Below the pieces are notes generated by a model. It worked only from the letters and a program-made list of their open reading frames with translations. It ran no database searches and was not told the origin of the DNA. Shown piece after piece: positions 5,160 through 21,463 of a DNA stretch of 64,000 bases. Source of the DNA: Bradyrhizobium elkanii USDA 76 (GTDB taxonomy: Bacteria; Pseudomonadota; Alphaproteobacteria; Rhizobiales; Xanthobacteraceae); the NCBI RefSeq assembly GCF_023278185.1, contig NZ_CP066356.1, forward strand, positions 6,502,001-6,566,000, read 5' to 3'. Numbering within the stretch: position 1 is the first letter of the stretch; each line of letters starts with the position of its first letter. Both the position numbers and the translations under genes were made by a program.

Positions 5160-5194
5160 AAGACACCATTGGCAATAAGCGCGAACGCGCCGCC

Positions 5195-11510: not shown

Positions 11511-12851
11511 CTAGTTCGGACAGATATAGCCGGTGCCGCCGGGTGCCTTGAAGCAGCCGACCGATTCCGGGATCACCTGCTTGGGGAGCCACAGCACGAC
11601 CTTCGGAAAATAGATCGTGAAGCAGATCGTGACCAGGAACACGACATAGATCGGCAGCGCCGCCCGCAACGCTTTTGCAAAACTGATGCCGACGAATTTC
11701 GAGGCCATCAGCAGCACGAGCCCGTAGGGCGGCGTGATCAGGCCGAACGCCAGCGTTGCGATCAGCACCACGCCCATATGCACGCCGTTGATGTCGCCGG
11801 CCTGGGTCAGCGCGTTGACCAGCGGCATGAAGATGATGATGGTCGGCACCGGCTCGATGAAGTCGCCGACCACGGTGAACAGCAGCACCATCAGGAGCAT
11901 GATGAGGTGTGGGTCGTTGCCGGCGATCGAGGTGATCCAGTCGGCGATGTAGATCGCGCCGCGCAGATAGGCCAGCATCCAGCCGAACGCGTTCGCCGCG
12001 CCGATCGTGATCAGCGGCAGCGAGAAGATCAGGCCGGCCAGACAGAAGTCGTACGGGATCTTCTTCAGGTGCCCGCGGTTCAGCGCCGGGATCACCACGA
12101 TGACGATGTAGGCGACCGCAACGACCCCGGCCTCGGTCGGCGTGAACCAGCCGGTCAGGATGCCGCCGAGCAGGATCACCGGGATCATCATCGGGAGCGC
12201 CGCGTCACCGGCGGCGAACACAACCTGGCGCGGCGGCGCGCGCGGCTTGCGCAGGCCCGAGGGCCCGAAGAAGTAGCAATAGATCATCAGCCCGAAGCCG
12301 ATCATCAGCCCGGGCACCACGCCGGCCATGAACAGCCCGGCGATCGAGACATTGCCGACCGCACCATAGACCACCGCCGTGATGCTCGGCGGCACCAGCG
12401 CTGCGATCGTCGAGGCCGAGGCGATGATCGCGGCGATGAAGGCCGGCTCATACCCTTCCCGCCGCATCGGCCCGCCGAGCGCCCGGCTCATGACCGCGAC
12501 GTCGGCGGTGGTCGAGCCCGACATCTCCGAGAAGAACATGCTGAAGACGACAACGACCTGCGACAGCCCGCCCCTGATGTGACCGACCAGCGAGACCGAC
12601 AGATTGGCGATGCGGACCACGACATTTGCCGAGCTCATGAGCTCGCCGACCAGGAGGAAGAACGGGATCGCAAGCAGCGCCTCGGAATCGACGCCGTCGA
12701 AGATCTTCTGGATGATCGCCGCCAGCGAGACGTCTGATAGCACTGCGCCGACGAACACGCCGGCCATCAGCGAGAACGGCACGGGCACGCCGAGATAGCC
12801 GAAGAACAGGAAGCAGAACGACATCAGCGCAAGCACGACCGGGGCGCTCAC
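11511..12851 (-). CDS. dctM: TRAP transporter large permease (DctM family)
   Basis: A 446-residue integral membrane protein with about 12 hydrophobic segments, including the family features FFSEMSGSTTADVAVM near residue 107 and VVGDFIEPVPTIIIFMPL near 330. It is the proton- or sodium-coupled channel subunit of a tripartite periplasmic transporter. The start overlaps the stop of the small permease gene by 4 bases (ATGA). Substrate is set by the DctP gene upstream; the neighbourhood suggests a sugar acid. The C-terminal tail (PESVGCFKAPGGTGYICPN) is longer than usual and has two cysteines. Confidence 0.95.
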   Translation of the reverse strand: MSAPVVLALMSFCFLFFGYLGVPVPFSLMAGVFVGAVLSDVSLAAIIQKIFDGVDSEALLAIPFFLLVGELMSSANVVVRIANLSVSLVGHIRGGLSQVVVVFSMFFSEMSGSTTADVAVMSRALGGPMRREGYEPAFIAAIIASASTIAALVPPSITAVVYGAVGNVSIAGLFMAGVVPGLMIGFGLMIYCYFFGPSGLRKPRAPPRQVVFAAGDAALPMMIPVILLGGILTGWFTPTEAGVVAVAYIVIVVIPALNRGHLKKIPYDFCLAGLIFSLPLITIGAANAFGWMLAYLRGAIYIADWITSIAGNDPHLIMLLMVLLFTVVGDFIEPVPTIIIFMPLVNALTQAGDINGVHMGVVLIATLAFGLITPPYGLVLLMASKFVGISFAKALRAALPIYVVFLVTICFTIYFPKVVLWLPKQVIPESVGCFKAPGGTGYICPN

Positions 12852-13432
12852 GGCTGAACTCCCGTCGTCGCGCGGGTGTCGATCGCAGGAATCGGAAGGT
12901 CGTCATCCGGCGGCTCCGGATGGTCAAAGCCGTTGCGGATGCCGTTGACGAGCTGCTCGATCGTGAACAGACCGATCAGGATTCCGGAGAGCGGGATCAC
13001 CGCATAGAGCGAGGCGATCGGCGTACCCGACGGCAGGCGGAAGCTGCCGAAGCCGCGGAGGTAATTTTGATAGCCGTACCACACCAGGCAAAGGGCGACG
13101 CCCAGCACCACCAGACGGATGACGATCTCCACGAGCAGCCGCGACCTGCCATGCAGCGCTTCGGAGATCGCGGTGAGATAGAGATGGTCGTTGCGCCGTG
13201 TCGCGACCGCGGCCCCGATGAAGATCGCGTAGATGAACAGCGTCGAGGTCACCTCCTGCAGCCACAGCCAGGGATGACCGATGGTGCGGGTGACGATATC
13301 TGCGGTCACCGACAGCGAGAAGCCGAAGCACAGCAAGCCGCACAGCATCATCAGGATCAGCTCGAGCCGGTCGAGCGCCCGCCATTTCAGATGCCGCTGC
13401 CGTTGCAGCACCAGCGTGTCGGCGATGGCCAT
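12848..13432 (-). CDS. dctQ: TRAP transporter small permease (DctQ family)
   Basis: A 194-residue membrane protein with four predicted transmembrane segments, beginning near residues 24-46 (LELILMMLCGLLCFGFSL) and 60-80. It forms the membrane domain with DctM, to which it is translationally coupled. A palindromic repeat fills the whole 147-bp gap between it and the dctP gene. The last part (about 165-194) is hydrophilic. Confidence 0.92.
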   Translation of the reverse strand: MAIADTLVLQRQRHLKWRALDRLELILMMLCGLLCFGFSLSVTADIVTRTIGHPWLWLQEVTSTLFIYAIFIGAAVATRRNDHLYLTAISEALHGRSRLLVEIVIRLVVLGVALCLVWYGYQNYLRGFGSFRLPSGTPIASLYAVIPLSGILIGLFTIEQLVNGIRNGFDHPEPPDDDLPIPAIDTRATTGVQP

Positions 13433-13452
13433 CGAATGCTCCGTCCTCGTAT

Positions 13453-13573
13453 GTCGTCCCGGCGAAGGCCGGGACCCATAACCACCGGCGCCTGATGCTT
13501 TGAGAAAGAACGGCGGCCCGGTGCTTCAATGGACGAGCCGCAGCGTATGGGTCCCGGCCTTCGCCGGGACGAC
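13453..13573. repeat. Intergenic palindromic repeat, family A (copy 2)
   Basis: Arms 13453-13478 and 13548-13573 match copy 1. It exactly occupies the space between dctP and dctQ in the TRAP operon, so it is transcribed as a hairpin between the binding-protein and membrane-protein cistrons. Confidence 0.92.
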
Positions 13574-13579
13574 GCTTGT

Positions 13580-14581
13580 CTAGTTGACCGCGCGGATCAA
13601 ATTCTTGATCTTCTCCGCATGTGGCCCGAGATCCTTGGCGAGCTTGTCGAGATAGGGATCGGCGATCGCGGTAAAGCTCTTCTTGTCGACGTCCTCGACC
13701 ACCTTGACGCCGAACGACTTCAGTTTTGCAGCCGCGTTCTTCTCCAATTCGAACGCCTTCGCCGGCTCCTTGGCGCTGACCTCGGCGGCCGCCGTCGTCA
13801 CCCAGGTCTTCTGCTCGGCTGAAAGGCTCTGCCACAGCTTGTCGCTGACGAACAGCAGCGCATTGTTGGCCTCGTGCTCGGTCATCGAGAGCACCGGCGC
13901 GACTTCGTAGTGCTTGTTGACGAGGTAAACGTTCACGCTGTTTTCCGCCGCATCGACGACGCCGGTCTGCAATGACGTGTACACGCTGCCGAACGGCATA
14001 TGGACGGTTTGCGCCGCGTAAGCCGGGAAGATCGTGTCTTCCGTAGCCGTCGCCTGAACACGAATCTTTACACCCTTGAGGTCGCTGACATTGTGGATTT
14101 CCTTCCTCGCATAGATGCTTCTCACACCTTGGCTGCCCGTCGCGATGACATGAAGGCCTTGCGACGTGTCGTCGATCATCGCCTTGATCGCATCGATCAC
14201 CTTCTGATCGGCAAGCGCCTTGACCACGTGGTTGGCGTCGCGGAACAGGAAGTGCAGCGACATCACACCGGCCTGCGGCGAGATGGTTGCAGTGTTCGCC
14301 GACGAGATGATGGCGAATTCAATGTCTCCGGATTTCACAAGCTGCAGCAGCTGCGGCTCCTGTCCGAGCTGCGCTCCCGGATACTGGTCGACGATCATGG
14401 TCCCCTTGCTCAATTCCTTGAGCTTGGCGGAGAACATGTCGTAGGCGACGCTATATCCGGTATTGAGCTGCTGATCGTGCGCGAAGCGGTAATGCTTGAC
14501 CTCCTGCGCGCCAGCACGCGGCGGCAGCAGCAACGCTGCCGCAGCCACGGCAATCCCGACGATCCCAGCTGAATAGCCCAT
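13580..14581 (-). CDS. dctP: TRAP transporter substrate-binding protein (DctP family)
   Basis: A 333-residue periplasmic protein. A signal peptide is visible (YSAGIVGIAVAAAALLLPPRAGAQE, cleavage near residue 24). The family's carboxylate-binding Arg region is GVKIRVQATATEDTIFPA and the conserved FGSVYTSLQTGVVDAAEN follows. ATG at 14581 is preferred because GGGGGA lies 8 bases upstream; an ATG at 14617 is possible but has a poor ribosome site. It captures an organic acid for DctQM. Upstream at 14635 is a copy of the palindrome also found between the GntR gene and the IlvD-like gene, so control by that GntR protein is likely. Confidence 0.93.
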   Translation of the reverse strand: MGYSAGIVGIAVAAAALLLPPRAGAQEVKHYRFAHDQQLNTGYSVAYDMFSAKLKELSKGTMIVDQYPGAQLGQEPQLLQLVKSGDIEFAIISSANTATISPQAGVMSLHFLFRDANHVVKALADQKVIDAIKAMIDDTSQGLHVIATGSQGVRSIYARKEIHNVSDLKGVKIRVQATATEDTIFPAYAAQTVHMPFGSVYTSLQTGVVDAAENSVNVYLVNKHYEVAPVLSMTEHEANNALLFVSDKLWQSLSAEQKTWVTTAAAEVSAKEPAKAFELEKNAAAKLKSFGVKVVEDVDKKSFTAIADPYLDKLAKDLGPHAEKIKNLIRAVN

Positions 14582-14634
14582 CGCGACGTTCCCCCTGTTT
14601 TTAATTGAGGAGATCATCCCACCAGTCGCGCTGG

Positions 14635-14643
14635 ATTGTCAAT
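14635..14643. promoter_or_regulatory. Putative GntR operator upstream of dctP
   Basis: ATTGTCAAT followed by A, i.e. the palindrome ATTGNCAAT, is the same core as the two sites at 16504 and 16567. It lies 54 bases upstream of the dctP start codon. Confidence 0.65.
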
Positions 14644-14748
14644 AAAACAGGCGAAACGAGCTGCCCTCGGGTATTATTGAGTGCCGCATCGCAGAAATTA
14701 TCGACAATTCGACCGCCGGGCCGAACGACGCCGGCTACTTGCGACTTG

Positions 14749-16452
14749 CTACTTCCCCTTGGCGCGCATGAAGTCGAAATCGCAGCCCTCGTCGGCCTGC
14801 AGGATGGTTTCGTTGAAAAGGTGCGCGTAGCCGCGCTTGGCCCAATCGGGCGTACCGGCCGGCGCGAGCGCGGCGCGGCGCTTCTGCAATTCGGCCTCGT
14901 CGACCAAAAGATCGATGCTGCGCTTGGCGACATCGAGCCGGATCATGTCGCCGTTCCGCACCAGCCCGAGCGGACCGCCGACGGCGGATTCCGGCGTGAT
15001 GTGCAGCACGATGGTGCCGAACGCGGTGCCGCTCATCCGCGCATCGGAGATGCGGACCATGTCCTTCACGCCGGCGCGCGCGAGTTTCTTCGGGATCGGC
15101 AGGTAACCCGCCTCCGGCATGCCCGGCGCGCCCTTCGGGCCGGCATTGCGCAGCACCAGCACGTCGTCGGCGGTCACATCCAGCGCGGGATCGTCGACCC
15201 GCAGCGTCATGTCCTCGACCGACTCGAACACCACGGCGCGGCCGGTGTGCTGCAATAGTTTCGGGCTCGCCGCCGAATGCTTGATGACGGCACCGCGCGG
15301 CGCGAGATTGCCGTGCAGGATCGCCATCGCGCCTTCGGACTTGATCGGGTTCGCCTTGGAGCGGATCGCGTCCTGCCCGGGCACATCCTCCGCGTTGGCG
15401 ACGACCTCACGCAAGGTCTGGCCGGTGATGGTCTTGGCATCGAGATCGATGAGGTCGCCGAGTTGCGCCATCAGCTTCGGCACGCCGCCGGCGTGATGAA
15501 AATGCTCCATGTAGTGTTCGCCCGACGGCTTGAGGTCGACCAGCACCGGAACCTCGCGGCCCAGCTTGTCGAATGCCTCGAGGTCGATCTTGTGCGGCGA
15601 GCGATTGGCGATCGCCGTGAGGTGGATCAGCCCGTTGGTCGAGCCGCCGATCGCCTGCATGACGACCTGGGCGTTGCGGAACGACGACGGCGTCAGGATC
15701 TCGCTCGGCTTCGGTCCCTTGGTCTTCGCCATCTCGGCCGCGACGAGGCCGCTGGCCTCCGCAGAGCGGAAGCGTTCGGCATGCGGCGCCGGGATCGTCG
15801 CGCTCATCGGCAGCGACAGGCCGAGCGCCTCGGTGATGCAGGCCATGGTGGAGGCGGTGCCCATCACCATGCAGGTGCCCACGGAAGGCGCAAGGCGGCC
15901 GTTCACCGCCTCGATCTCATTGTCGTCGATCTCGCCGGCGCGATACTTGCCCCACAGTCTGCGGCAGTCCGTGCAGGCGCCGAGCACCTCGCCCTTGTGA
16001 TGGCCAACGACCATGGGCCCGACCGGAATCACCACCGTCGGCAGATCGGCGCTGATCGCGGCCATGATCTGCGCCGGCAAGGTCTTGTCGCAGCCGCCGA
16101 TCACGACCACCGCATCCATCGGCTGGGCGCGGATCATCTCCTCGGTATCCATCGCCATCAGGTTGCGCAGATACATCGAGGTCGGATGCGCAAAGCTCTC
16201 CGCGATCGAGATCGTCGGGAACACGAACGGCATCGCGCCCGACAGCATCACGCCGCGCTTCACGGCCTCGATAATCTGCGGCACGTTGCCGTGGCAGGGA
16301 TTGTAATCGCTATAGGTGTTGGTGATGCCGACGATCGGGCGATTGAGCGCATCGTCCGAATAGCCCATCGCCTTGATGAACGCCTTGCGCAGGAACAGCG
16401 AGAAGCCGGCGTCACCATAGCTTGTCAGTCCCTTGCGAAGTCCGTCGGCCAT
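14749..16452 (-). CDS. IlvD/Edd family sugar-acid dehydratase
   Basis: A 567-residue iron-sulfur dehydratase. Cysteines expected to hold the cluster are in NPCHGN (near residue 53), GGCDKT (near 121) and SVGTCMVMGTA (near 194). The C-terminal half carries the AMAILHGNLAPRGAVIK and DARMSGTAFGT segments. It resembles the L-arabonate/D-xylonate/D-galactonate dehydratase branch more than the biosynthetic IlvD (GYSDDALNRPIVGITNTYSD start, ACTDCRRLW). Expected reaction: aldonate to 2-keto-3-deoxy-aldonate. A GntR regulator is divergent from it with two operators between, and the dctPQM operon follows on the same strand. Confidence 0.88.
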   Translation of the reverse strand: MADGLRKGLTSYGDAGFSLFLRKAFIKAMGYSDDALNRPIVGITNTYSDYNPCHGNVPQIIEAVKRGVMLSGAMPFVFPTISIAESFAHPTSMYLRNLMAMDTEEMIRAQPMDAVVVIGGCDKTLPAQIMAAISADLPTVVIPVGPMVVGHHKGEVLGACTDCRRLWGKYRAGEIDDNEIEAVNGRLAPSVGTCMVMGTASTMACITEALGLSLPMSATIPAPHAERFRSAEASGLVAAEMAKTKGPKPSEILTPSSFRNAQVVMQAIGGSTNGLIHLTAIANRSPHKIDLEAFDKLGREVPVLVDLKPSGEHYMEHFHHAGGVPKLMAQLGDLIDLDAKTITGQTLREVVANAEDVPGQDAIRSKANPIKSEGAMAILHGNLAPRGAVIKHSAASPKLLQHTGRAVVFESVEDMTLRVDDPALDVTADDVLVLRNAGPKGAPGMPEAGYLPIPKKLARAGVKDMVRISDARMSGTAFGTIVLHITPESAVGGPLGLVRNGDMIRLDVAKRSIDLLVDEAELQKRRAALAPAGTPDWAKRGYAHLFNETILQADEGCDFDFMRAKGK

Positions 16453-16503
16453 TTTCTTGTCGTCCCGTGGTTGTTCGGCCGCACTTAAGGAGCGGCAGGA
16501 ATT

Positions 16504-16512
16504 ATTGTCAAT
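16504..16512. promoter_or_regulatory. Putative GntR operator, site 1
   Basis: ATTGTCAAT in the context TTATTGTCAATAT, 52 bases upstream of the IlvD-like gene. The core is a palindrome with one central base. Confidence 0.72.
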
Positions 16513-16566
16513 ATGAGATAATCCGGTCGCGACGGGTGGCTGGTCTGCGGCAAAATCGCCCCCATT

Positions 16567-16575
16567 ATTGACAAT
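16567..16575. promoter_or_regulatory. Putative GntR operator, site 2
   Basis: ATTGACAAT in the perfect palindrome TTATTGACAATAA (16565-16577), 63 bases (centre to centre, six helical turns) from site 1 and about 50 bases upstream of the GntR start. Two phased sites suit looping or control of both divergent genes. Confidence 0.75.
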
Positions 16576-16624
16576 AACCGTGGCGCCATGCTGACCTCAG
16601 GCACCGATCGGGAGCCGAGAGCGC

Positions 16625-17317
16625 ATGACAGCCGAGCCCACATTGCCCGAACTCCAGGCCCCCTCGCGCGAGGAGGAACAGGCGGAAGTGATCCGCCGGT
16701 TGGAGGAGGACATCATCTTCGGCCGCTTCGCGCCCGGTTTGCGGCTGGTCGAGGATACCTTGATGCAGCGCTATGGCGCGAGCCGGCATTTCGTCCGCCA
16801 GGCGCTGTTCCAGCTCGAGCGCCAGGGCATCGTGCTGCGCGAGAAGAATGTCGGCGCCACGGTGCGGTTCTATTCGGCCGAGGAAGTACGGCAGATCTAT
16901 GAGGTACGCGAGATGCTGACGCGCCAGGCCGCGCTGATGATCGCCCTGCCCGCGCCGCAAAGCCTGATCGACCAATTGAGCGAACTGCAACGGCATTACA
17001 GCACCAAGGCCGAGGCGCAGGACATGCGCGGCATTCACGAGACCAACGATGCGTTCCACCTCGCGCTGTTCTCCGCCTGCGGCAATCCCTACCTCGTCCG
17101 CTCGCTGCAGGACTACATGAACCTGACGCTGCCGATGCGCGCCAAAAATCTCGCCGACAGCGAGGGCCTCGCATTGTCGCGCCGCCAGCACGAATTGATG
17201 ATCGAGCTCTTGAAGGGCCGCGACGGCTGGGCGCTGGCGCAGCTCTGCGTCGATCACATGCAGTACAGCAAGGCGGATTATCTCGTCCGCATCTCCAACG
17301 ACAAAAAGCCGCAATAG
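16625..17317 (+). CDS. GntR family regulator, FCD (FadR-like C-terminal) subfamily
   Basis: A 230-residue DNA-binding regulator. The winged helix-turn-helix is at about residues 20-85 (FAPGLRLVEDTLMQRYGASRHFVRQAL...LEREG-like). The C-terminal FCD domain is all-helical, with metal or ligand residues in HETNDAFHLALFSACGN and HELMIELLKG. FCD regulators typically sense organic acids such as galacturonate, gluconate or lactate. It is divergent from the IlvD-like dehydratase. Three ATTGNCAAT palindromes nearby are its probable targets. The start codon has GAGAGCGC before it, with GGGAG further upstream. Confidence 0.92.
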   Translation: MTAEPTLPELQAPSREEEQAEVIRRLEEDIIFGRFAPGLRLVEDTLMQRYGASRHFVRQALFQLERQGIVLREKNVGATVRFYSAEEVRQIYEVREMLTRQAALMIALPAPQSLIDQLSELQRHYSTKAEAQDMRGIHETNDAFHLALFSACGNPYLVRSLQDYMNLTLPMRAKNLADSEGLALSRRQHELMIELLKGRDGWALAQLCVDHMQYSKADYLVRISNDKKPQ

Positions 17318-17351: not shown

Positions 17352-17918
17352 ATGCGCTACGTGGCTATATTCCTTGGATCGTTGGCCGTGCAGCTCGCGC
17401 TCGGCGGCGTCGGCGAAGCGGGCGATCCGCGCGCGACGCAGCTCACCTACGAGCCCTGGACCAAGACGTGCCTGACAGAGGCTAGCTGCTTCGTCGGCGC
17501 CGCCGCGCGCGGTCAGTGCTCGCCGTCGGGCGGCACACTCAGCGTCTCGCCGCAGAACAGCAAGCGCGCCATCGTGAGCGCCAACGTCGGAACGCGGACC
17601 ATGCTGGAAGGCACGATCAGCCTCCGCATCGATCAGGACGAGCCGATCCAGATCGCCAAGCCGCATTGCTATACGCTCGGCTGCGGCGGCACGCTCGAGG
17701 CCGACGGCGAAATGATCGAGCGGCTGAAGCACGCGCAGACCATCGCCGTCGAAGCCAAGAACCTTACCGGGCAGACCATCAGCCTCGCCTTTCCTCTCAC
17801 GCACTTCGCCGAGACCTTTGACGGGCCCGGCAACCCGCCCAAGACATCCGGGCAAGGTTCGAAGGACGCGCAGCAGCACACCGAATCCGTGAAGCAACTG
17901 CCGCAATGCGAGGATTGA
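17352..17918 (+). CDS. IalB (invasion-associated locus B)-like secreted protein
   Basis: A 188-residue exported protein with signal peptide MRYVAIFLGSLAVQLALGGVGEA. The mature part has the IalB-family pattern: EPWTKTCLTEASCFVGAAARG, followed by a paired-Cys region HCYTLGCGG. The four cysteines likely form disulfides. IalB proteins were described in Bartonella as invasion-associated; in rhizobia the role is unclear. ATG at 17352 is chosen for AAGGAG eight bases upstream. The frame also has an earlier GTG at 17337. The stop abuts the stop of the convergent uronate dehydrogenase gene. Confidence 0.82.
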   Translation: MRYVAIFLGSLAVQLALGGVGEAGDPRATQLTYEPWTKTCLTEASCFVGAAARGQCSPSGGTLSVSPQNSKRAIVSANVGTRTMLEGTISLRIDQDEPIQIAKPHCYTLGCGGTLEADGEMIERLKHAQTIAVEAKNLTGQTISLAFPLTHFAETFDGPGNPPKTSGQGSKDAQQHTESVKQLPQCED

Positions 17919-18740
17919 TCACTTCTTCCAGTCGATCACTCTCTCCTTGTCGCCATCGAACTCCATGCTGCAGAACGCGCCGCCCTGATAATAGTCGCCG
18001 ACCGGATCCGGCGGCAGCTTGGCCTGCTCGGCCATCGCGTGCTCGCGGAAATCCTCAGCCCGTCCGGTCGGGCGATAGCCGAGATCGTAGGCGCGGTGAT
18101 TGTCCCACCACGAGCGCTCATTGTAGGACGCGCCGTACAACACCTCGAAATGAATGTCGGGATGCTCGAGCCCGATGCGGCAGAGCTGAACCAGATCTTC
18201 GGGCTTGAGCCAGATCGAGAGCCGGCGGTGGTCGAGCGGCGCCTCGCCGAAATTGCCGATCCGCAGGCAGGTGACCTTGATGCCGTGCTTGTCGGCATAG
18301 AGCGCGCCGACGCCTTCGCCGAACACCTTGCTCACACCGTAACGACTGTCCGGCCGCGCGGTGACGTCGGTGCCGATGCGGTGATGGCGCGGATAGAATC
18401 CGACCGCGTGATTGGATGAGGCGAAGATCACGCGCTTGACGCCCTTTTTGCGCGCCGCCTCGAACAGATTGTAGCAGCCGATGATGTTGGACTGCAGGAT
18501 CGCGTCCCAGGGTCCTTCGACCGAATAGCCGCCGAAATGCAGGATGCCGTCGACGCCCTCGCAGATCGCCTCGACCTCTGCGAGGTCGGCGAGATCGGCC
18601 GCCTTGAACTTTTCGTAGCCGCCGAGATCGGAGGGCTGCTTGATGTCGCTCAGCAGGAGATCCGGATAGATCGGCGGCAGCAGCTTGCGCAGGCTCGTTC
18701 CGATTCCCCCCGATGCGCCGGTCATCAAAATGCGTGGCAT
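17919..18740 (-). CDS. Uronate dehydrogenase-like NAD-dependent SDR
   Basis: A 273-residue extended short-chain dehydrogenase. The nucleotide-binding motif TGASGGIG is at residues 7-14; Ser is in FASSNHAVGFYP; the catalytic pair YGVSK is near residue 137. The stretch HAVGFYPRHHRIGTDVTARPDSRYGVSKVFGE matches the pattern of uronate dehydrogenase from Agrobacterium, which oxidizes galacturonate or glucuronate to the aldaro-lactone. It is divergent from an SMP-30 lactonase gene, which could open such a lactone. Substrate is inferred from family likeness only. Confidence 0.8.
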   Translation of the reverse strand: MPRILMTGASGGIGTSLRKLLPPIYPDLLLSDIKQPSDLGGYEKFKAADLADLAEVEAICEGVDGILHFGGYSVEGPWDAILQSNIIGCYNLFEAARKKGVKRVIFASSNHAVGFYPRHHRIGTDVTARPDSRYGVSKVFGEGVGALYADKHGIKVTCLRIGNFGEAPLDHRRLSIWLKPEDLVQLCRIGLEHPDIHFEVLYGASYNERSWWDNHRAYDLGYRPTGRAEDFREHAMAEQAKLPPDPVGDYYQGGAFCSMEFDGDKERVIDWKK

Positions 18741-18853
18741 GCCGTCCCTCTTCTTTCCTGATTGCTGCGACCGAATTGCGGTCGCAGGCCGACAATGATA
18801 GCAAACCAGGCGCTCAAGGAAACACCATCGAAAAACAACAACGAGAACAGCAA

Positions 18854-19816
18854 ATGTCCGATGTTCATTCCGCCGGCTGGCGTCCCGCGACCTGCTATCC
18901 CGATCCCGCGATCCACGCGCTTGATCCGCGCTTCGAGAAATACTGGCTTAAACTCTCCGCGGTTGAACGCATCGCGACCGGCCTGCGCTGGGCCGAAGGT
19001 CCGGTGTGGTTCGGCGACGGCCGCTATCTGTTGTGCAGCGACATCCCGAACCAGCGCATCCTCAAATGGGAGGAAGAGACCGGCGCGGTCAGCATCTTCC
19101 GCAAGCCGTCGAACTTCGCCAACGGCAACACCCGCGATCGCCAGGGCCGGCTGATCACCTGCGAGCACGGCGGCCGCCGCGTGGTGCGCACCGAATATGA
19201 CGGATCGATTACGGTGCTGATCGATTCCTTCGGCGGCAAGCGGCTGAACTCGCCAAACGACGTCGTGGTGAAATCCGACGGCTCGATCTGGTTCACCGAT
19301 CCGATCTTCGGCCTGCTCGGCAACTACGAAGGCTACAAGGCCGATCCCGAGATCGAGCCCAACGTCTACCGGCTCGATCCCGCAACCCGCGAGGCCGCCG
19401 TCGTCGCCGAGGGCGTGCTGGGACCGAACGGGCTGTGCTTCTCGCCGGACGAGAAGATCCTCTACGTCGTGGAATCCCGCGGCGAGCCGAACCGCAAGAT
19501 CCTCGCCTATGACGTCGCAGCCGACGGCAAGACGATCTCCAACAAACGCGTCTTCATCGACGCCGGCCCGGGCACGCCCGACGGCATGCGCTGCGACATC
19601 GACGGCAATCTGTGGTGCGGCTGGGGCATGGGCGATCCCGAGCTCGACGGCGTGGTCGTGTTCGCGCCCGACGGCGTCATGATCGGCCGCATCGCGCTGC
19701 CGGAGCGCTGCGCCAACCTCTGCTTCGGCGGCATCAAGCGCAACCGCCTGTTCATGGCGGCGAGCCAGTCGATCTATGCGCTCTACGTCAACACCCAGGG
19801 CGCGCTCGGCGGTTAA
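18854..19816 (+). CDS. SMP-30/gluconolactonase family lactonase (copy 1)
   Basis: A 320-residue six-bladed beta-propeller hydrolase. Metal-ligand segments are visible: GLRWAEGPVWF (Glu near residue 47), NSPNDVVVKSDGSIWFTDP near 145, GPNGLCFSPDEKILYV near 193 and GTPDGMRCDIDGNLWCGW near 240. It likely opens sugar-acid lactones. ATG at 18854 gives MSDVHSAG; the frame extends back to 18713 without a good ribosome site. It is divergent from the uronate dehydrogenase, which would supply a lactone substrate. A palindromic repeat follows. Confidence 0.9.
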   Translation: MSDVHSAGWRPATCYPDPAIHALDPRFEKYWLKLSAVERIATGLRWAEGPVWFGDGRYLLCSDIPNQRILKWEEETGAVSIFRKPSNFANGNTRDRQGRLITCEHGGRRVVRTEYDGSITVLIDSFGGKRLNSPNDVVVKSDGSIWFTDPIFGLLGNYEGYKADPEIEPNVYRLDPATREAAVVAEGVLGPNGLCFSPDEKILYVVESRGEPNRKILAYDVAADGKTISNKRVFIDAGPGTPDGMRCDIDGNLWCGWGMGDPELDGVVVFAPDGVMIGRIALPERCANLCFGGIKRNRLFMAASQSIYALYVNTQGALGG

Positions 19817-19824
19817 GTCTCTTC

Positions 19825-19943
19825 GTCGTCCCGGCGAAGGCCGGGACCCATTACCACAGACCTTCGTTATTCGAACAATGCGGCCCGAGCTTACTCAACC
19901 AGATGCATCGGTGGTTATGGGTCCCGGCCTTCGCCGGGACGAC
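19825..19943. repeat. Intergenic palindromic repeat, family A (copy 3)
   Basis: Arms 19825-19850 and 19918-19943 match copy 1. It begins 8 bases after the stop of the lactonase gene and faces the stop of the convergent aldehyde dehydrogenase, where it may act as a terminator. Confidence 0.9.
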
Positions 19944-20029
19944 GACAAAAACTTGTACCTTCCCAAAACGTCTGACGCCGGAGCAGTTGCCTGCCTCGGC
20001 GCCAAAAGTCACGTCTCTCGTGGCTCGGC

Positions 20030-21463
20030 TTACGCGGCGTTGTAGCCGGCGACCGCCTTGGCCTCGAGATATTCTTCCAGACCGTAGCGGCCCCACTCGC
20101 GGCCGTTGCCGGACTGCTTGTAGCCACCGAACGGCGCGGTGCGCTCGTTCGGCATGCCCTGCAGGTTGACGTTGCCGGCGCGGATCTGGCGGCCGACGCG
20201 GCGCGCGGTTTCCACGGTGTCGGCCGAGACGTAACCGGCGAGACCATACGGCGTGTCGTTGGCGATCTTCACCGCATCGGCTTCGTCCTTGGCGCCGAGG
20301 ATGGTCAGCACCGGTCCGAAGATCTCCTCGCGGGCGATCGTCATGTCGTTGGTGACGTCGGCGAAGATGGTCGGACGGACATAGAAGCCCTTGTTGACGC
20401 CCTCGGGCAGGCCCGGGCCGCCGGCGACCAGCGTTGCGCCCTCGTCGATGCCCTTCTGGATCAGCGCCTGGATCTTGTCCCACTGGCCGCGGTTGACCAC
20501 CGGACCGATCGTGGTGCCGTCGGCACGCGGATCGCCGGCCTTGGTCTTGTCGGCGACGCCCTTCGCGATCGCGGCCACTTCCTTCATCTTGGAGAGCGGC
20601 ACGATCATGCGCGACGGCGCGTTGCAGGACTGGCCCGAGTTGTTGAACATGTGCATCACGCCGCCGGTCACCGCCTTGGTCAGGTCGGCACCATCGAGGA
20701 TCACGTTCGGCGACTTGCCGCCGAGCTCCTGGCTGACGCGCTTCACGGTCGGCGCCGCACGCTTGGCGACGTCGACGCCGGCGCGGGTCGAACCGGTGAA
20801 CGAGATCATGTCGATGTCGGGGTGCTCGCTCATCGCCGCACCCACCTCGGGGCCGAGGCCGTTGAGCAGGTTGAATACGCCCTTCGGCACGCCGGCTTCA
20901 TGAAGGATTTCCGCGAAGATCAGCGCCGAGGTCGGGGTGAACTCCGACGGCTTCAGGATCATGGTGCAACCGGCGGCGAGCGCGGGCGCGACCTTGCAGG
21001 CGATCTGGTTGAGCGGCCAGTTCCAGGGGGTGATCATGCCGACGACGCCGACCGGCTCGCGCACGATCACGGCGGTGCCCATGGTCTCCTCGAACTCGTA
21101 CTTCTTCAGCACTTCGAGGGTGTTCATGAGGTGGCCAAGGCCGGCGCCGGCCTGCAGCTTCTCGGCCATCGGCAGCGGCGCGCCCATCTCGTCGGAGACG
21201 GCAGCACCGATCTCCTTCATGCGGCCCTTGTAGACCTCGACGATCTTGGTGAGCAGCGCGACGCGCTCCTCGCGGCTGGTCTGGGAATAGGTCTCGAAGG
21301 CGCGCTTGGCGGCGGCGACTGCCTTGTCGACATCGGCCTTGGAGCCGAGCGCAATCTCATACATCGCTTCTTCGGTCGCCGGATTGACGACCGGGGTGGA
21401 CTTGCCTTTGACGACGGGATCGACCCAGGCGCCGTCGATGTAGAATTGCATGCGATTGACCAT
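20030..21463 (-). CDS. NAD(P)-dependent aldehyde dehydrogenase (copy 1)
   Basis: A 477-residue enzyme with all catalytic features: ITPWNWPLNQ (oxyanion Asn near residue 150), SQELGGKSPN (general base Glu near 250), and NNSGQSCNAPSRM (nucleophile Cys near 284). The C-terminal signature EEIFGPVLTILG is present. Of many substrates possible, 2-ketoglutarate semialdehyde or another sugar-acid-derived aldehyde fits its location between lactonase and dehydratase genes, but this is inference. It has its own upstream gap of 323 bp. Confidence 0.92.
   Translation of the reverse strand: MVNRMQFYIDGAWVDPVVKGKSTPVVNPATEEAMYEIALGSKADVDKAVAAAKRAFETYSQTSREERVALLTKIVEVYKGRMKEIGAAVSDEMGAPLPMAEKLQAGAGLGHLMNTLEVLKKYEFEETMGTAVIVREPVGVVGMITPWNWPLNQIACKVAPALAAGCTMILKPSEFTPTSALIFAEILHEAGVPKGVFNLLNGLGPEVGAAMSEHPDIDMISFTGSTRAGVDVAKRAAPTVKRVSQELGGKSPNVILDGADLTKAVTGGVMHMFNNSGQSCNAPSRMIVPLSKMKEVAAIAKGVADKTKAGDPRADGTTIGPVVNRGQWDKIQALIQKGIDEGATLVAGGPGLPEGVNKGFYVRPTIFADVTNDMTIAREEIFGPVLTILGAKDEADAVKIANDTPYGLAGYVSADTVETARRVGRQIRAGNVNLQGMPNERTAPFGGYKQSGNGREWGRYGLEEYLEAKAVAGYNAA

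Follow-up and report, generated by a model that had tools for sequence, protein, structure and literature searches.

Paired palindromic sites that most likely tie an FCD-type GntR regulator to a dehydratase gene and a TRAP transporter operon in Bradyrhizobium elkanii

In the 64,000-nucleotide stretch of the Bradyrhizobium elkanii USDA 76 genome analysed here (the window, meaning the whole stretch), a gntR-type regulatory gene lies divergently beside an ilvD-type dehydratase gene, and a TRAP transporter operon follows. The first-pass annotation had proposed that three copies of the palindrome ATTGNCAAT link these genes, and so the locus raises the question of whether such short A/T-rich sites are the operators of the regulator, and in what form and arrangement. 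Sequence comparison makes it most likely that these sites are those of the FCD-GntR regulator and tie gntR, ilvD and the TRAP operon together. The genes of the cluster and its neighbours are as follows.

11511..12851, minus strand: dctM, TRAP large permease (Pfam DctM).
12848..13432, minus strand: dctQ, TRAP small permease (Pfam DctQ).
13580..14581, minus strand: dctP, TRAP solute-binding protein (Pfam DctP, 2e-64).
14749..16452, minus strand: ilvD-type dehydratase gene, 567 aa (Pfam ILVD_EDD_N and ILV_EDD_C).
16625..17317, plus strand: gntR, FCD-domain GntR regulator, 230 aa (Pfam GntR, PF00392, 4.3e-14, 52.4 bits against a cut-off of 27; Pfam FCD, PF07729, 3e-23, 83 bits against a cut-off of 24.3).
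17919..18740, minus strand: uronate-dehydrogenase-like gene, a neighbour (PDB matches of 3.1e-71 to 9.9e-65).
18854..19816, plus strand: SMP-30/gluconolactonase-family gene, a neighbour (Pfam SGL, 1.3e-60).

We found that the regulator combines an N-terminal GntR winged helix with a C-terminal FCD domain, which places it by Pfam among the FCD-type GntR proteins. The metal site of FCD domains consists of three His and one Asn or Asp, and residues N141, H145, H189 and H211, invariant in nine aligned homologues, fit the predicted site. PhnR (TIGR03338) was rejected as its identity, with 103.3 bits against a curated cut-off of 271.5. The dehydratase carries both domains of the IlvD/Edd family (PF00920 and PF24877) and matched NCBIfam NF004784 with 870 bits (cut-off 539); L-arabinonate dehydratase (NF009559) was discarded at 696 bits, below its curated cut-off of 882. 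The DctP, DctQ and DctM genes stand in a row on one strand (11511-14581) and make up a DctPQM TRAP transporter, the dctP start at 14581 having been picked by eye from the ribosome-binding site (the open reading frame may begin at 14617). Past gntR there are genes for an IalB-like protein, the uronate-dehydrogenase-like protein, the SMP-30 lactonase and an aldehyde dehydrogenase, and the order ilvD, gntR, uronate dehydrogenase, lactonase was seen again in most of the relatives fetched. A G+C-rich repeat, CGTCCCGGCGAAGGCCGGGACCCAT, resembling REP/BIME elements, was noticed by eye in inverted copies at about 13450-13575 and 19825-19945.

The positions of the proposed sites were exact, ATTGTCAAT starting at 14635 and 16504 and ATTGACAAT at 16567, and the claimed separation of 63 bases between the two central sites was confirmed. 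The three sites thus kept their places, whereas the full 13-bp palindrome TTATTGNCAATAA occurs only at 16565-16577; the counterparts at 16502 and 14633 differ from it by one and two mismatches, respectively. The first-pass annotation had also reported no other copy in the 64 kb, which did not hold: CCATTGGCAATAA at 5166-5178, containing ATTGGCAAT, has two mismatches as well, and a fourth site before dctP, at 14697-14708, had been missed. Read in an even 12-bp register, the candidate operators and the -35 boxes within them are as follows.

14635..14646, minus strand: candidate operator, dctP proximal; TTTATTGACAAT towards dctP, one mismatch to ATTRTNNAYAAT.
14637-14642, minus strand: -35 box TTGACA in the dctP proximal site.
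14697..14708, no strand assigned: candidate operator, dctP distal; ATTATCGACAAT, perfect match.
16501..16512, minus strand: candidate operator, ilvD side; ATTATTGTCAAT on the plus strand, ATTGACAATAAT towards ilvD, one mismatch.
16506-16511, minus strand: -35 box TTGACA in the ilvD-side site.
16564..16575, plus strand: candidate operator, gntR side; ATTATTGACAAT, perfect match.
16568-16573, plus strand: -35 box TTGACA in the gntR-side site.

The number of matches says little for the 13-mer. Six matches with up to three mismatches were found in the window against 2.86 expected, a number reached by 5 of 100 shuffles, and 55 places with up to two mismatches were found genome-wide against 41 for the reversed control; being barely above the control, this count was not used as evidence. 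The even 12-mer ATTRTNNAYAAT has four matches with at most one mismatch in the window, namely the four sites of the cluster, compared with a mean of 0.8 in 60 simulated sequences, at least one of which also reached four. Two of these matches are perfect (mean 0.045 and maximum 1 in 200 simulated sequences), and the 9.5 Mb genome holds seven perfect 12-mers compared with two for the reversed control. Of the remaining five, two lie inside open reading frames (loci L223 and L225), two between them (L224 and L226), and one precedes a branched-chain-amino-acid-type ABC gene (L217). Numerous copies at unrelated places, named beforehand as a sign against the operator model, were therefore found to some extent for the loose 13-mer and not for the even 12-mer. 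Across 36 fetched loci (484 kb), the even motif matched seven times away from the 9-mers, four times perfectly, a rate that is not pure background because the set includes paralogue loci. The core ATTGWCAAT occurs 29 times in 9.5 Mb, three times within 1.9 kb at the cluster. It is place and conservation, rather than count, that raise the motif above chance.

One perfect ATTGTCAATAAT outside the window (L046:5422-5433, or G000:C1:6578421-6578432) lies about 12.4 kb past its end and about 220 bp before a gene named by eye as a branched-chain-amino-acid-type ABC binding-protein gene. This site is kept in genomes G003 and G004 (L219 and L218) and has one mismatch in G024 (L221), and the same gene in G014 and G031 has ATTGTAAACAAT beside a regulator about 37% identical. 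Going by these matches, the ABC binding-protein gene is a possible extra target of GntR. A long inverted repeat, TGTCAATAAGATTATCGATAATATTATTGACA, stands upstream of a GntR paralogue in L072 (6827-7480, 35% identical).

Considering that the sites can be read around either an odd or an even axis, their register was determined from an alignment of 61 distinct pairs of sites, which covered the genus and included four loci from other genera. On the gntR side, all 12 bases of ATTATTGACAAT are 100% conserved in the 61 pairs, while both flanks vary. The pairs had been collected with the 9-mer as search key, so that the symmetry of the core proves nothing; yet the first three bases of ATTATTGACAAT lie outside this key and are invariant all the same, and the bases after the 9-mer are free. 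On the ilvD side, NTTATTGACAAT is found in 38 pairs and ATTGACAATAAT, in the opposite orientation, in the other 23, which are those of the window's clade; each matches ATTRT-NN-AYAAT with no more than about one mismatch. In four loci of other genera (L156, L158, L160 and L161) both sites are perfect (ATTGTCAATAAT/ATTATTGACAAT). It is extremely unlikely that the odd 13-bp palindrome TTATTGNCAATAA is the true operator. The window's gntR-side site is indeed a perfect odd palindrome and its 9-bp core is symmetric around that axis, but only about a quarter of the gntR-side sites still pair past the 9-mer (fractions of 0.26 and 0.25 at the first two positions outside it), locus L167 carries two perfect even sites that lack ATTGWCAAT and lie 63 bp from each other, and the dctP distal site, too, is even. 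The odd 13-mer was rejected on this alignment: the sites stood as putative FCD-GntR operators, their odd axis did not, and an even 12-bp ATTRT-NN-AYAAT takes its place.

As far as the aligned sites tell, the conserved unit is this even 12-bp palindrome, close to the known FadR-subfamily operator. The even axis is imperfect, the central pair and the R/Y pair being mismatched: set against the FadR-subfamily consensus, with its TKGT and ACMA boxes and 2-3 nt separating GT from AC, one half reads TTGT/ACAA with a 2-nt centre and the other TTAT instead of TKGT. More distant homologues (L169, L173, L175 and L167) have TTGT in both halves. Among them, L167 (regulator 51% identical) carries ATTGTTGACAAT twice, 63 bp apart, and an additional one-mismatch match, while L169, L173 and L175 (regulators 39-41% identical) carry ATTGTCAACAAT as one perfect site each, with no pair. 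L168 (49% identical) has ATTGTTAACAAA, with one mismatch, and ATTATTGACAAT 63 bp apart, and ATTGTTTACAAT was found at L070 and L071 (36-37% identical). By title, no GntR operator was among the matches listed in the literature for ATTGTCAATAAT, ATTATTGACAAT and TTGTCAATAA, and TTATTGNCAATAA was not found among those listed.

The distribution of the pair was then compared with that of the regulator. Across 265 genomes of the genus, a search for two 9-mers with 41-70 bases between them found the pair in 182, one time per genome, with 9-mer spacings of 62-67 among the matches listed, and the reversed pattern found none. A GntR orthologue (E <=1e-60) was present in 184 of these genomes and ilvD (E <=1e-250) in 256. 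Both pair and GntR occurred in 182 genomes, GntR only in two, the pair only in none and neither in 81. Of the two exceptions, G163 does have a pair, at a distance of 63 bp, whose gntR-side site carries one substitution, and the contig of G183 ends short of ilvD. The proposed link between the GntR regulator, the IlvD-type dehydratase and the TRAP operon was thereby supported, the pair tracking gntR (182 of 184 genomes with GntR, 0 of 81 without). All 30 loci with the best GntR matches, including the window's own, have two 13-mer sites with up to two mismatches and similar spacing, both on the ilvD side of gntR. Mapped on a tree of ilvD from 92 loci, pair and gntR each change 14 times; of nine independent contrasts on supported branches, every random pairing had eight or nine in agreement and none opposed (median p 0.004 by sign test). 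Here L157 was coded as GntR-positive without the pair, its gntR being arranged differently and preceded by one perfect site, and L158 was left out, its contig ending inside ABC genes. To some extent joint loss is trivial, since a single deletion can take out pair and gntR together; linkage can explain part of the coupling, and co-loss as proof of binding is weakened accordingly. Since the ilvD-gntR sites adjoin gntR, a test at dctP, away from gntR, was made instead.

Among 26 dctP promoters from loci with GntR, seven have TTTATTGACAAT together with a perfect distal site at 62-63 bp. These seven (L083, L048, L049, L050, L055, L057 and L171) are all the loci fetched from the window's clade that have both GntR and a TRAP operon, the window's own among them, and their dctP lies about 2 kb from gntR; in L057 and L171 dctP is doubled and only the second copy has the operator pair. 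The 19 promoters without the pair comprise these two first copies and 17 dctP genes directly behind ilvD, which presumably belong to its operon. Among 13 dctP promoters from loci without GntR, eight keep ATTGACAAT and none has TTTATTGACAAT, a perfect even site or the pair; a single one-mismatch even site, at another distance, was found in L201. The dctP state changes only three times on the tree (14 loci), twice on supported branches, and therefore represents few independent events.

These promoters bear on a simpler explanation, that the sites are mere -35 boxes of sigma-70 promoters, their symmetry being incidental and GntR binding elsewhere. TTGACA does read towards gntR, ilvD and dctP in the three proximal sites, conserved blocks follow downstream at the expected -10 place, and ATTGACAAT persists without GntR not only in 8 of 13 dctP promoters but also before ilvD. 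Of 75 GntR-negative genomes with ilvD, 39 were inspected. Seven loci (L137, L139, L196, L197, L208, L209 and L211) keep a single full ATTGACAAT before ilvD, for which promoter constraint or recent loss is the only explanation we offer. Seven others (L177-L181, L185 and L186) keep TTGACA there, within ATTGACAAC or GTTGACAAC, where the 9-mer is short of one or both of its end bases. In the remaining 25, the 130 bases preceding ilvD lack TTGACA; for 23 of these, the next recognised upstream gene is uronate-dehydrogenase-like and on the same strand. The core TTGACA being a -35 box, the 9-mer alone persists in some genomes that lack GntR. Nevertheless, that the sites are nothing else is very unlikely: the dctP distal site has neither TTGACA nor a gene of its own and is still perfect in 7 of 7 GntR-positive TRAP loci of the clade, TTTATTGACAAT is found in 0 of 13 GntR-negative dctP promoters, three bases beyond the 9-mer are fully conserved in 61 gntR-side sites, and the distance between sites is held at 62-64. 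A -35 box within an operator can mislead a motif search: loci that have lost the regulator often retain the promoter part, but not the operator part at dctP.

We propose that the sites are probably operators of the FCD-GntR at 16625-17317, at which paired dimers repress gntR, ilvD and dctPQM. A GntR dimer would bind each site, the two sites of a pair being occupied co-operatively, and the two dimers would touch on one face of the DNA, directly or via a short loop; since a 63-bp loop is tight, a one-face contact is as likely. The complex would hide the -35 boxes and so repress the three transcripts, gntR probably being autoregulated, until a sugar-acid ligand in the FCD pocket releases the protein. 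Ligand and sign of regulation are inferred from the habit of the family.

The spacing of the sites is central to this proposal. The window has two pairs, with centres 62 bp (dctP) and 63 bp (ilvD/gntR) apart. With one parse per group, the even-axis centres of the ilvD-gntR pairs are 62-64 bp apart in 61 of 61 pairs, constant whatever the intergenic length, as expected of co-operative double-site operators; the 9-mer spacing differs by group (62-64 or 65-67), while the even-axis spacing is 62-64 in both. The automatic parse of 38 pairs gave 62 (13 pairs), 63 (22), 64 (2) and 65 (1), the lone 65 being most likely a parse ambiguity in L156, where the rule took the other parse. The ilvD-side site of the window's clade has two parses 3 bp apart, which tie in five loci; a looser automatic parse gave 59-60 in four pairs because of these ties, and the fifth, L027 (61 in the looser parse), was left out of the tally, its orientation being unrecognised. 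The dctP pairs are 62-63 bp apart in 7 of 7 loci. L167 and L168 keep 63 bp although their regulators are only about 50% identical and the gene order is gntR, pair, dctPQM, ilvD; given this tandem order, divergent promoters do not account for the spacing. As the alignments present it, the two-site geometry is unusually rigid.

If GntR bound the sites independently, each for its own promoter, the 63-bp distance would be without function. Such an arrangement has precedent, given that 71 of 100 FadR-type double-site divergons with a regulator gene were of the separate-site type in the available part of one survey (PMC4494728), but it is unlikely here: the distance stays at 62-64 across genera and at 63 in the tandem order, the dctP distal site serves no second promoter, and the ilvD site varies more in its distance to the ilvD ATG (sd 5.1) than in its distance to its partner (sd 0.67; 38 pairs).

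The proposal of paired dimers acting as repressor can be taken further. We tentatively suggest, with the case close to balanced but falling slightly short, that GntR obligately binds two sites, clamping 63 bp (six turns) as a dimer of dimers, and that the two-site module is the evolved unit: it would stay with dehydratase and regulator while the transporter varies (ABC in other genera, TRAP here), and a separate second pair would control the TRAP promoter of the window's clade. In genomes G380, G306 and G379 (regulators 71-74% identical), ilvD is divergent from ABC-transporter genes, a Gfo/Idh/MocA-like oxidoreductase gene and gntR, although the ORF picker did not resolve the oxidoreductase in G379; G289 looks like the start of the same arrangement up to its contig end. 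The gene names in these four genomes come from reading translations. In the window's clade, an oxidoreductase-like start and about 1 kb of extra DNA lie between the pair and gntR in L050, L053, L055, L056, L066 and L067, and L051 has such a start with a shorter stretch. Since the transporter genes differ between loci with the pair, the operator pair is what they have in common.

As regards the pathway, the best solved relatives of DctP are 4mhf and 4mij (7.5e-39). The former is Bpro_3107, a TRAP protein that, in the accessible part of the report, binds D-glucuronate and D-galacturonate (PMC7660916). With one of the two best solved relatives of DctP hexuronate-binding, a sugar acid is the probable substrate of the cluster. 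For the uronate-dehydrogenase-like gene, three of the four best PDB matches are named uronate dehydrogenase. The first-pass annotation had described the regulon as transport plus the first catabolic step. This description was not borne out: the uronate-dehydrogenase-like and lactonase genes adjoin the cluster without an operator (the even motif is absent from 17900-20100 at up to two mismatches), and in many GntR-less loci as well as in other genera the dehydratase gene lies directly behind a uronate-dehydrogenase-like gene, a placement that hints at a later step. Such a gene stands directly upstream of ilvD, in the same direction, in L138, L140, L142-L145, L150 and most GntR-negative loci of L177-L212, and this gene pair hints at the pathway of the dehydratase. 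The genome also has a separate aldarate-type cluster (L227, G000:C1:2124500-2134500) with KdgD above its cut-off and, by eye, glucarate-dehydratase-like (enolase-type), GarD/UxaA-like and aldehyde dehydrogenase genes beside it. Given this KdgD locus, the IlvD protein need not act on aldarates, and a uronate/aldarate route as the certain pathway was set aside.

Taken as a system, this is a bacterial switch of a fairly ordinary kind, though a well-conserved one. For a regulator present in 184 of the genus's 265 genomes, it supplies a precisely defined candidate operator, its four sites and their fixed spacing, and with these a direct test case for the action of FCD-GntR proteins across 63 bp in phase. 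The window's GntR matched PDB 6z74, which we take to be Atu1419, at 2.9e-9. In the portion of the study at hand, Atu1419 of Agrobacterium fabrum is an FCD regulator that loops DNA as a tetramer between palindromes (ATGTATACAT) 190 bp apart, or 109 bp apart in another promoter (PMC7797058). Like this member of the VanR group, the window combines an FCD regulator with short even palindromes at promoter boxes and two sites in a divergent region; whereas Atu1419 bridges 190 bp as a tetramer, the distance here is 62-64 bp. DgoR of E. coli, going by the available excerpt, belongs to the FadR family and represses a sugar-acid pathway, two inverted repeats lying across the promoter (PMC7674646), a similar layout with a different gene set. 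The double-site divergons of the FadR subfamily, in which, as far as the accessible text goes, two sites at constant distance are described as co-operative (Suvorova, Korostelev, Gelfand 2015, PMC4494728), share with the window the FCD-type regulator, the A/T-rich palindrome, the regulator gene divergent from its target and the two intergenic sites. Unlike the consensus TKGT..ACMA given there, one half of the present sites is TTRT, and unlike those divergons, the window has a second, unidirectional pair with nearly the same spacing before dctP.
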